From: Trinickia soli
GTDB lineage: Bacteria > Pseudomonadota > Gammaproteobacteria > Burkholderiales > Burkholderiaceae
Direction of reading: 5' to 3'
NCBI RefSeq assembly: GCF_002879855.1
Contig: NZ_PNYB01000009.1
Location: 124,001-188,000, forward strand
DNA length: 64,000 nt
Below, piece after piece: positions 8,675 to 11,756 of the stretch (position 1 is the first letter of the stretch; every line of letters starts with the position of its first letter). A program made the translations under genes and the position numbers. The notes under the pieces were generated by a model. It was not told the DNA's origin. It did not search any database and worked only from the letters and a program-made list of their open reading frames with translations.

Positions 8675-9034
8675 ATGAAAGCCTTCTCCCTCGCCACCGC
8701 CGTTATCGCCCTCTCAATCACGTTGACGGGCTGCGGCTCCGCACAGCAGTCCGGAACGAGCGCACGTGCCTCGGACGCGCCGATGGTCTTCTCCTCCGCC
8801 CGCTCGCCCCGCTCGATCGCCAACTGCCTGTCGAGCCGCCTCACCGGTGTCGATCGCCGCATGGGCGCCGGCTATACCGAGCTTGGGCTCGGACGCTCGG
8901 CGAACGGCTACGCATGGCTCGTTACACTGAAGCCATCCGCCGTCGGATCGAATGTGACGGTGGAAAAAGTCATCGACAACGATTCGGTATCCGAGCCGGA
9001 ACTGCGCTTCGCGATCGCACGCTGCACGACCTAG
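8675..9034 (+). CDS. Small lipoprotein of unknown function
   Basis: 119 residues. A lipoprotein signal is clear: MKAFSLATAVIALSITLTGC with lipobox LTGC, so Cys20 would be lipidated; Gly-Ser after Cys gives no inner-membrane retention Asp, so outer membrane is likely. The mature part (about 99 residues) has a Ser/Ala linker and then a folded-looking portion with SIANCLSSRLTGVD, GLGRSANGYAWLV and a C-terminal IARCTT; Cys residues in the first and last could pair. I do not recognise a named domain. It is convergent with the fic gene, and the two share one CTAG for both stop codons. Confidence 0.75.
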   Translation: MKAFSLATAVIALSITLTGCGSAQQSGTSARASDAPMVFSSARSPRSIANCLSSRLTGVDRRMGAGYTELGLGRSANGYAWLVTLKPSAVGSNVTVEKVIDNDSVSEPELRFAIARCTT

Positions 9035-10158
9035 GCGTCGACCGGGCCGGCCAGTTCGTAAGACGTGGCGCGGCCGCCCGCATCCGATTTTTTCAGAAGC
9101 CCTTTCGCGAGCAGGTCGCTAATGTCGCGCAACGCTGTATCGGGTGAACACTTGGCGATGGCAGCCCATTTCGCAGATGTGAGTTTGCCCTCAAATCCGT
9201 CGAGCAATCGATTCAGCAGTTTCGATTGCCGCGCGTTCAACGAGACGCTGCCCCAACGCTGCCAGAAGCGCGCTTTTGCCAGCACCGCATCCAGCGTCTC
9301 CTGTGCCAGGCCGATCGCACGATGCAGCACGCCGAGAAACCAACCGAGCCATTCAGTAATGTCGAGCGAGCCCTTTTGGGTTTGCTCGAGGATGGCGTAG
9401 TAAGCGTTGGTTTCTCGCTGTATTTGCGCCGATAAGCTAAAGAAGCGCTGCGGACTGTTGTCAGCTCGCGCCAGTAGCAGATCGCCGATCGCGCGAGCAA
9501 TACGTCCGTTGCCGTCGTCGAACGGATGTACCGTGACGAACCATAAGTGGCCTATTCCTGCCCTGATCAATCCGGGTTCGTGCGCAGGCGCATTAAGCCA
9601 GGCGATCAGCCGCGCCATTTCGCGCTCGAGCCGGTCGGCCGGAGGGGCTTCGAAATGAACGCGTTGCCGACCGATCGGGCCGGATACGACCTGCATCGGT
9701 CCATGCATGTCGTCCCGCCAACCGCCGACGCCGATTCTTGATAGACCCGAGTAGCCCGTCGGAAACAGTGCCGCATGCCAGCCAAACATACGCTCGCACG
9801 TCACCGGGGCATAACAATTGGCGGTCGCGTCCAGCACCATGTCGACCACGCCTTCTATATGGCGGTCGATCGGTGCGAGCGCGCCGATATCCACACCGAG
9901 TCGTCTCGCGATCGATGAGCGTACAGAGCCCACGTCGAGCCGCTCGCCCTCGATTTCGCTGGTCTTGACTACATCGGCGGTCAGCGCCGCGAGCGTTGCC
10001 TCGTTCCGCAGGAGCACGCCGACGTCCGCAAGCCGCCCGAGCAGTACCCCTTGGGCTCGGCTGACATCCGCCAACGACTTGGCCAGCGCGGCCAAGTCGT
10101 AGCGCAAATTCGGCCAGTCATCGGCCTGCCAGATGTATGTGTAATCTCCGCAATTCAT
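9031..10158 (-). CDS. Fic family protein with N-terminal DUF4172 and C-terminal winged helix
   Basis: 375 residues. Residues 8-80 match the DUF4172 start (YIWQADDWPNLRYD). The inhibitory helix motif S/TxxxE(G/N) is present as TSEIEG near residue 67, making this a class II, self-inhibited Fic protein. The catalytic motif HPFDDGNGRIAR near residue 212 is complete: catalytic His, phosphate-binding GNGR. The last 70 residues (NRLLDGFEGKLTSAKWAAIAKCS...) look like a winged helix. Known Fic enzymes transfer AMP to Ser/Thr/Tyr hydroxyls; the target cannot be read from sequence. The start overlaps a triple repeat (10142-10186). No antitoxin-like small partner is adjacent. It could be an orphan toxin or a regulatory AMPylator. 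Confidence 0.88.
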   Translation of the reverse strand: MNCGDYTYIWQADDWPNLRYDLAALAKSLADVSRAQGVLLGRLADVGVLLRNEATLAALTADVVKTSEIEGERLDVGSVRSSIARRLGVDIGALAPIDRHIEGVVDMVLDATANCYAPVTCERMFGWHAALFPTGYSGLSRIGVGGWRDDMHGPMQVVSGPIGRQRVHFEAPPADRLEREMARLIAWLNAPAHEPGLIRAGIGHLWFVTVHPFDDGNGRIARAIGDLLLARADNSPQRFFSLSAQIQRETNAYYAILEQTQKGSLDITEWLGWFLGVLHRAIGLAQETLDAVLAKARFWQRWGSVSLNARQSKLLNRLLDGFEGKLTSAKWAAIAKCSPDTALRDISDLLAKGLLKKSDAGGRATSYELAGPVDA

Positions 10159-10186
10159 GCGGAGATTATTGGGGCTAATCTCCGCA
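10142..10186 (-). repeat. Three alternating copies of an 11-mer across the fic start codon
   Basis: Read on the minus strand, TGCGGAGATTA (10186-10176), its exact complement TAATCTCCGCA (10168-10158) and TGCGGAGATTA again (10152-10142). The middle copy can pair with the first (7-base loop GCCCCAA) or with the third (5-base loop TGAAT), not both. The A of the ATG is the last base of the middle copy, so the start codon is at the foot of one hairpin or in the loop of the other. The only GGAG before the start is inside copy one, 21 bases away. The third copy is coding (Cys-Gly-Asp-Tyr). Confidence 0.85.
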
Positions 10187-10224
10187 AATGCAAACTGCCG
10201 GCCCTGCGCCGAGCACCCGCGCCC

Positions 10225-10491
10225 CTACTGCGGGTCGTCAGGACATTGCAGGTTGCACCCGTTGGGATCGCCGTTGTCGCCTCGCTTACGCAACTGCGTG
10301 TCGCGCGTCTGATACTTCTTCGAAGGCGCCGATGCGGCGAATTCCATCTGCGGATGTTCCTGGAGCCTGAACTGGTCCTGCAAGATGCCGCCGGGCAGGC
10401 CCGGCGAGTTTTGAGCGAAGCCCAATGACGCAACCATGGAGAGCGCCCCTGCCGCTGCCGCAGCGACGCAAAGTCTGACAAGCGATTTCAT
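10225..10491 (-). CDS. Small secreted protein of unknown function
   Basis: 88 residues. A signal peptide is likely (MKSLVRLCVAAAAAGALSMVASLGFAQ, cut near GFA-QNS). The mature part of about 60 residues is polar: QDQFRLQEHPQMEFA, SKKYQTRDTQLRKRGDN and a C-terminal pair of cysteines in NGCNLQCPDDPQ. No family recognised. I prefer this ATG because a signal peptide follows directly; an in-frame ATG at 10530 would add 13 charged residues. Neither has a strong ribosome site. The gene sits alone between fic and the formate dehydrogenase regulator, on the same strand as both. Confidence 0.6.
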   Translation of the reverse strand: MKSLVRLCVAAAAAGALSMVASLGFAQNSPGLPGGILQDQFRLQEHPQMEFAASAPSKKYQTRDTQLRKRGDNGDPNGCNLQCPDDPQ

Positions 10492-10676
10492 AGCATTGCC
10501 GCGCCGGACGGCGCGTTCCGAATCCGTCATATTTGGAAAGCTGCAAGCGTAACGCAGATCGGCGCGTTCATGCAGCGGCCGCCATTACAGCCGTAACCGA
10601 TGAGGTGAGACAAGGCACCGCGCTGCGGCACATCGCGCATCGGCGACCGCCGCTTGCGCGCGCCCCGCATGCCGCC

Positions 10677-11756
10677 CTAAAGCGGTGCGCCGCGCAAACC
10701 CGCCGCTACGTCGACGATCGCGCCGCAATGGGTTGGGTCGTAGCCTTCGAGACCGGCCACGCCCGCGCGGAAATCGTCGCTGCGAAGCACGGCGAGCGCG
10801 GCAGCGACGGGCTGCGCCGACAACCGGCTGCGCTCGCAGGCGAAGTAGTAATCCTCGTCCACGATCGGCAGGAAATCGAGTGCGAAATGATGAGCGGCCG
10901 GCGCCACGCCGAGGCCGGCATCGGCCATGCCGCTCGCGACGAACGCGGCAATTGCCGTGTGCGTCAGTTCCGTCGATGCGTAGCCGTTGATGCGCTCCGG
11001 ATCGATGCCGATACTGTTGAGCGCCAAATCGAGCAGCAACCGCGTGCCGGATCCCGGCTGACGGTTGACGAAGCGGATATCCGCACGCGCGAGATCGTCG
11101 AGGCCGCGCACCCCTTTCGGATTGCCTTTGGCCAGGAAGAGGCCTTGTTTGCGCGCGGTCAGGTAAACGAGCACATGCCGGCGCGGGTCGAGCCAGCGCC
11201 GATAAATGTCGGCGCACAGATCCCGGAACGCCCCGCGCGGCAGATGAAAGCCGGCGAAATCGCATTCGCCGCGCGCGAGCGCCATCACGGCTTCGGCGCT
11301 TTCCCGGTATTTGATTTCCACGGCGCTCCCTTCGCGCGCATTCATTTGTGTGACAAGCGCCGCGACGGCATAGCCGTGCGAAGCATGAATGCGCGTCGTG
11401 CCGGTCGCGCCGAGCTGCCGATTCAATTGCGCAGCCACTTCTCCCGCAAGCTGCTTGAGCGGCCCGTCGAGCCGCTCCGTGCAGGCGCGCTGCCCCTGCA
11501 CGACCGCCCGGCCCAATGCCGACAGCGCCGAGCCCTTGCCGCGCTCCTTCGAAATCAGTTCGCCGCCCAGACGCGCCTCGATCGCGCGCAACAGCCCCCA
11601 GGCATGGCGGTAAGACAACTGCCGTTCGCCGGCAGCCTGCGCGATGCTGCCCGTCTCGTCGATCAGCGCCAGCAGCGGCACGATGTCCGTCAAACTCGCC
11701 TCGCGGCCCGCGCTGTCGCGGACGATCAATTCCGCGACGCATTTGATCTCTATCAT
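10677..11756 (-). CDS. HTH / periplasmic-binding-like transcriptional regulator, divergent from the formate dehydrogenase operon
   Basis: 359 residues in two parts. Residues 20-95 are a LysR/ModE-type winged helix (LLALIDETGSIAQAAGERQLSYRHAWGLLRAIE, followed by a wing). From residue 120 on there is a substrate-binding-protein-like domain (PBP-like): IHASHGYAVAAL, NRQPGSGTRLLLD and VASGMADAGLGVAPAAHHF are typical of ModA/PstS-like folds that bind oxyanions or cofactors. Position and orientation match FdsR-type control of fds genes. Ligand is unknown; molybdate or formate would make sense because the operon encodes a Mo-formate dehydrogenase, but that is inference. Two dyads lie in the shared promoter region. 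Confidence 0.85.
   Translation of the reverse strand: MIEIKCVAELIVRDSAGREASLTDIVPLLALIDETGSIAQAAGERQLSYRHAWGLLRAIEARLGGELISKERGKGSALSALGRAVVQGQRACTERLDGPLKQLAGEVAAQLNRQLGATGTTRIHASHGYAVAALVTQMNAREGSAVEIKYRESAEAVMALARGECDFAGFHLPRGAFRDLCADIYRRWLDPRRHVLVYLTARKQGLFLAKGNPKGVRGLDDLARADIRFVNRQPGSGTRLLLDLALNSIGIDPERINGYASTELTHTAIAAFVASGMADAGLGVAPAAHHFALDFLPIVDEDYYFACERSRLSAQPVAAALAVLRSDDFRAGVAGLEGYDPTHCGAIVDVAAGLRGAPL

Follow-up and report, generated by a model that had tools for sequence, protein, structure and literature searches.

A half-site array over the promoter of a class II fic gene and its probable role in autorepression by the Fic winged helix

The fic gene and its three repeats

The window (the whole 64,000-nucleotide stretch of Trinickia soli DNA analysed here) carries, on the minus strand, a fic gene with the first base of its ATG at 10158 and with three copies of one 11-mer around its 5′ end. 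The features of the locus are as follows.

9031–10158, minus strand: fic, 375 amino acids, with DUF4172 (residues 8–89), Fic (120–229) and a C-terminal winged helix; match to PDB 8cil, E = 6e-98
9106–9144, minus strand: recognition helix (residues 339–351 in the AlphaFold model), proposed reader of the half-sites; residues 338–346 best predict half-site differences
10142–10152, minus strand: half-site F3 (copy 3), exact, in codons 3–6 (C-G-D-Y); found in 93/103 loci; where codon 5 is Asp it is GAT (79/79)
10158–10168, inverted relative to fic: half-site R2, exact, covering the end of the −10 box and the A of the ATG; found in 99/103 loci
10165–10170, minus strand: −10 box AATAAT (CATAAT in most relatives), from a promoter scan; at least 5/6 of TATAAT in 82/88 relatives
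10176–10186, minus strand: half-site F2 (copy 1, TGCGGAGATTA), exact, in the spacer between −35 and −10; columns −28 to −18 conserved in relatives (74 distinct); found in 91/103 loci
10188–10193, minus strand: −35 box TTGCAT (TTGCGC in most relatives), 17 bp from the −10 box; TTG at −35 to −33 in 76/88 relatives
10196–10240, minus strand: place of module A (F0, R1 and F1 in most relatives), degenerate in the window and overlapping the end of an upstream open reading frame (ORF)

The Fic domain is matched by Pfam (E = 2.6e-14) and contains the Fic motif HPFDDGNGRIAR at residues 211–222. An inhibitory motif of the form (S/T)xxxE(G/N) is present at the N-terminal side as TSEIEG (residues 66–71), and the two motifs together show that the gene was rightly called class II, the commonest kind of Fic protein. 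Pfam gives no helix–turn–helix (HTH) match in the protein. In the AlphaFold model (mean pLDDT 89.3), the C-terminal domain is a winged helix, with helices at residues 309–319, 328–335 and 339–351 and strands at 355–357 and 367–369; in an earlier model from a shallower alignment (pLDDT 51.7 overall), the blocks covering residues 301–370 reached 72–89. The alignment with the nearest solved relative, CbFic2 (PDB 8cil), spans residues 8–369. A phage origin is not indicated, the best phage matches to the Fic protein (15 records) being less than 60% identical. A second Fic protein in the same genome (C39: 8081–8659, L092) is 28% identical and lacks the window operator. The locus is syntenic between the window (10677–11756) and Trinickia dinghuensis (L010, 2–982): in each, fic is preceded by a ModE-like plus PBP-like regulator and by a small ORF; L010 and L093 also have upstream DNA in common.

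The three copies of TGCGGAGATTA are exact (10142–10152, minus; 10158–10168, plus; 10176–10186, minus), are separated by gaps of 5 and 7 bases and are the only exact copies in the 6,096,209 bases of the genome, in which the reversed-pattern control gives 0. Each paired arrangement of the 11-mers occurs at a single place, and a regulon search of the same genome found no second paired site. The coordinates confirm that the last base of the middle copy is the A of the ATG, with the third copy lying within the coding region. Chance had been considered an unlikely source of the pattern, and this holds: the F-R-F arrangement scores 33/33, a value reached by 0/40 dinucleotide shuffles (best 18). With two mismatches allowed, the 11-mer is uninformative genome-wide and in the window (6 seen in the window against 12.9 expected).

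A promoter array conserved across the family

At least 80 loci with 74–80% identity were reduced to 74 distinct relatives and aligned ungapped on the ATG. Among the matches listed, these relatives have six conserved half-sites, not three: F0 from −82, R1 at about −63 to −54, F1 from −48, F2 from −28, R2 to +1 and F3 from +7, with the R2 columns (−10 to +1) the most conserved. As modules, F0-R1-F1 and F2-R2-F3 repeat each other in the same orientation at a distance of 54 bp, and the R-to-R distance is 54 in 84 of 109 R-R pairs. Across 103 distinct loci, six half-sites are found in 50, five in 29, four in 8, three in 13 and two in 3. Only F2, R2 and F3 score in the window and in its Trinickia relative L010; the place of module A is occupied in the window by the end of a 101-codon ORF, for which no family match was found, and by unrelated sequence, and the remaining module is perfect. 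The R-to-F spacing (14 core to core in 200/203) is more rigid than the F-to-R spacing (20 in 182/199), and five ATAG-type loci have the F-to-R arrangement only, so that the unit bound by a dimer could be either R-F or F-R. The window-type array accompanies fic in beta-, gamma- and alphaproteobacteria and on a Hymenobacter plasmid.

The spacing extends to distant members of the family. We assembled 219 loci, kept 213 after dropping 6 of odd length (L141 and L191 among them) and used 192 distinct loci for the spacing test. The F-R-F spacing of 18/16 was the best of 121 spacing pairs both in 141 window-type loci (mean score 25.7/33, compared with a median over spacings of 16.4) and in 51 distant loci (22.35 compared with 16.9), which establishes at the level of sequence both the array and its spacing. 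All 40 shuffles were beaten by 133/141 window-type and 32/51 distant loci, leaving 8 and 19, respectively, that fail to do so. The distant loci have half-sites such as TGAGCCGAATA, TGAAGCGATTA and TGAGGCGAATA, among others. A further group, the Q117-type, reads TGAG(C/T)NATAG with another spacing, and most of its loci misfit 18/16; two of them (L205 and L207) have quite different repeated words, GTCCTATA and ATGTCAGT, upstream of fic and also misfit 18/16.

The array is placed on a promoter. TTG-N17-CATAAT lies between F1 and the ATG in all but a few relatives; in the window, the promoter scan puts the −35 box one base further upstream than listed above. A Shine–Dalgarno-like word at −16 to −4 is found in 1/88 relatives. 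The original prediction had pointed to the only GGAG, inside the first copy; this word is misleading as a Shine–Dalgarno sequence, because it ends 21 nt before the ATG, too distant for an ordinary one. In 103 of 118 window-type loci with the −10/R2 pattern (of at most 165; duplicates kept), the ATG is 7 bp past the last base of the −10 box, the usual distance of a transcription start. Given this conserved geometry, the predicted transcription start is the first base of the ATG; the fic mRNA, predicted to be leaderless, would then lack copy 1 and retain a single base of copy 2. In the other 15 loci, 14 of which are deeper homologues with 55–62% protein identity to the window, translation can first begin in frame 10–25 bp past the −10 box, most often at 23, a shift of about 16 bp, with array and promoter unmoved. 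Since the start codon moves while array and promoter remain fixed, the array is tied to the promoter rather than to the start codon. An in-frame upstream ATG, GTG or TTG occurs in 37/91 relatives (ATG in 10), and none is present at the window fic.

The third half-site also seems to force the choice of codon 5. F3 reads (T/A)GC GGN GAT TAY, in which the wobble position of the Gly codon falls on the unconstrained base of the half-site. Asp is encoded at codon 5 by 79 of 90 distinct loci, always as GAT, whereas 31.6 (s.d. 4.3) would be expected from the usage of each gene, an expectation whose implied probability should not be taken literally as the loci are related by descent. Elsewhere the same genes use GAT 854 times and GAC 1,280 times, and no other among 28 well-filled Asp columns exceeds 0.85 GAT (median, 0.44). 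The remaining 11 loci have GAA (9), GGT (1) or AAT (1) at codon 5, and some GAA loci, for example L014, yield GCGGCGAATA, another accepted form of the half-site. The N-terminal peptide C/S-G-D-Y of Fic is thus encoded by an operator half-site; it precedes DUF4172, which starts at residue 8, and is missing from deeper homologues that start past F3.

The original prediction had also offered a translational RNA switch, in which the middle copy would base-pair with one or other of its neighbours in the transcript, hiding or freeing the start codon. The mutually exclusive hairpins can be formed on paper: complementarity in the window is perfect, and the predicted fold of the 52-nt strand has an energy of −19.1 kcal/mol (z = −4.95), an outcome that any perfect inverted repeat would give. 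Predicted folds are also strong for L010 (z = −4.00) and L013 (z = −4.12), with only −1.24 for L088, and 66 bp separate the end of the same-strand upstream ORF from the ATG, so that a read-through mRNA with a leader, able to hold all three copies, is possible. Yet only the window and L010, 2 of 88 distinct relatives, can form both hairpins without a mismatch; the helix between copies 1 and 2 is complete in 24/88 and that between copies 2 and 3 in 2/88. The covariation that was proposed as a check is nearly absent, with double-sided compensatory changes in 1 and 3 of 968 cells. Partial pairing is common, most loci pairing at 9–11 of 11 positions between copies 1 and 2 and at 8–10 of 11 between copies 2 and 3, and it survives because all copies resemble one half-site. 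Related genes with the same start and no pairing, which had been named as evidence against the hairpins, are therefore what the relatives show for the perfect double hairpin, with partial pairing persisting in many of them. The promoter that is predicted to leave copies 1 and 2 out of the mRNA, the start codon that shifts independently of the array and the second module upstream of the −35 box in most relatives all argue in the same direction. The switch is largely refuted by the 88 relatives, and we regard it as very improbable. No known RNA family is matched, Rfam giving 0 matches in 9900–10600 at E values up to 1.

Half-site changes and the Fic winged helix

The half-site differs between clades of the family in step with the Fic protein. 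On a tree built from DUF4172-Fic only, half-site class changes 7 times, close to the minimum of 6 and compared with a mean of 20.6 after shuffling. Four genomes have two family members, and in each (L141 and L191 being included in this comparison) the half-site differs between the two. In the window's own genus, genome G001 has a member that is 46% identical (L114) with a TGAGGCGATTA-like array.

To relate half-sites to parts of the protein, we took 156 loci (0/40 shuffles, score of at least 22), of which 151 could be oriented and 86 were non-redundant. With overall protein distance removed, half-site differences are best predicted, among 367 nine-residue windows, by residues 338–346 and 324–332 (partial r = 0.549 each); the largest partial r in 200 label permutations was 0.304. 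Both segments belong to the same domain, the modelled HTH helices being residues 328–335 and 339–351, and the first falls on the recognition helix. Typically, the helix KCSPDTALRDI goes with CGG half-sites, KVSKATATRHL with AGC, KVSRATATRHL with AGG and AGT, and KTSRATAYREL with AAG. Within the 21 non-CGG loci, the top segment is residues 357–365, in the wing region, followed by 283, with 338 at 0.369. The link between half-site and recognition helix comes from few independent changes, about 7.

The operator pattern is nearly confined to fic. A scan with the R-F pattern covered 19 of 26 genomes with a family member, chosen for a match of about 62% identity or more (G047 left out); it gave 26 places in all, 25 of them at fic, and 0 for the reversed control, and two of the scanned genomes had none. 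The sole match away from fic (G082: C47) lies inside a 640-codon open frame, which we take to be pyruvate-kinase-like and in which Fic homology is at chance level. This near confinement calls for a regulator that is private to the fic gene, and the simplest candidate, judging from these patterns, would be the gene's own product.

Proposed autorepression and related systems

We conclude that the 11-mers are very probably half-sites of a DNA operator array over the fic promoter, through which the Fic winged helix represses its own gene. An operator array for self-control was the other reading in the original prediction, and it is supported by the conservation and spacing of the array and by its co-divergence with Fic. 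We infer that the winged helix binds the half-sites, probably as dimers. A winged helix bound at F2 (between −35 and −10), R2 (the −10 box and start point) and F3 (inside the gene) would cover spacer, −10 box and start point and block RNA polymerase; the promoter would be shut and the level of Fic kept low. Module A, directly upstream of the −35 box, may add cooperativity. The operator would double as promoter, start codon and first coding triplets, thereby fixing the start codon and first triplets of the gene that it controls.

An operator for a separate host regulator is quite improbable. Other regulators could exist in each genome; such a protein would nevertheless have to account for an array that travels with fic across three proteobacterial classes and onto a Hymenobacter plasmid, for the near absence of the pattern away from fic in 19 genomes and for paralogues in one cell that differ in half-site, and no single neighbouring regulator gene recurs in ten annotated plasmid loci (L121–L130). 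It is highly doubtful, too, that the array activates or recruits without repressing, by concentrating Fic at the promoter or controlling plasmid or neighbour functions. Module A does sit just upstream of the −35 box, a position that activators also use, but R2 and F2 lie over the core promoter itself, an arrangement that favours occlusion, and the distantly related protein CccR acts as a repressor.

Autorepression by Fic has a precedent in that protein, a class II Fic of Yersinia pseudotuberculosis with a C-terminal HTH. CccR represses its own promoter through the HTH and inverted repeats near −35 and −10; expression rises 3.3-fold in a deletion mutant, and binding is shown by electrophoretic mobility shift and footprint assays (PMC9755527). 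The window fic likewise has inverted repeats at the −35 and −10 boxes of its own promoter. CccR differs in its half-site, AGATAATCAT, which forms a single pair with a 26 bp spacer (the window has TGCGGAGATTA, spaced by 7 and 5 bp). Window-type arrays have three (window) or up to six half-sites, 16–20 bp apart, of which one falls within the reading frame and another on the start codon. The R1–F2 distance in six-site arrays is 36 bp centre to centre, equal to that of the CccR boxes (10 + 26 bp), possibly by chance.

CbFic2 of Coxiella burnetii shares the DUF4172-Fic-winged helix architecture. In the passages of its report considered here, the HTH binds DNA, random DNA is bound with high affinity and DNA switches the enzyme from AMPylation to deAMPylation; the DNA was random, and these passages describe no specific operator or autoregulation (PMC10628234). 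SoFic of Shewanella oneidensis (PDB 3eqx and others), also a Fic protein with a C-terminal winged helix, was deposited as a transcriptional regulator; its sequence match to the window protein is limited to the Fic part, residues 165–301, and the same passages state that its DNA binding has no demonstration (PMC10628234). Type II toxin–antitoxin operons resemble the window locus in that the level of a toxin-like enzyme is controlled through a repressor acting at the enzyme's own promoter; they differ in that at fic one gene would do both jobs and there is no neighbouring antitoxin, none of the ten annotated plasmid loci having an antitoxin-annotated gene beside fic. A search of the open literature, a scope outside which most subscription papers fall, returned no account of the window array.

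The relevant known reports are therefore those on CccR and CbFic2, and what is new is a self-regulating Fic protein, as we propose it, with a multi-site, clade-specific operator that holds the start codon. Nearly nothing is known of how class II Fic proteins are controlled, according to the CccR report (PMC9755527). For many DUF4172-Fic proteins, the comparison predicts the DNA that is bound, the place and the helix that reads it. Self-repression becomes testable clade by clade, and the family provides a small natural data set for the recognition code of winged helices.

By analogy with CbFic2, the promoter array might also act as the antitoxin, the cognate operator silencing fic and holding the enzyme harmless. 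If DNA binding switched AMPylation to deAMPylation here as well, the operator would hold Fic in a harmless form. We consider this extension unlikely. Were it true, the ratio of operator copies to Fic would set toxicity, one gene and its own promoter would form a complete toxin–antitoxin module, and each family member would have a private half-site; on plasmids with fic beside repC, the module could sense copy number or loss. Such plasmids occur in roseobacters, where fic lies directly downstream of repC in Sulfitobacter (L126) and Thioclava (L128).
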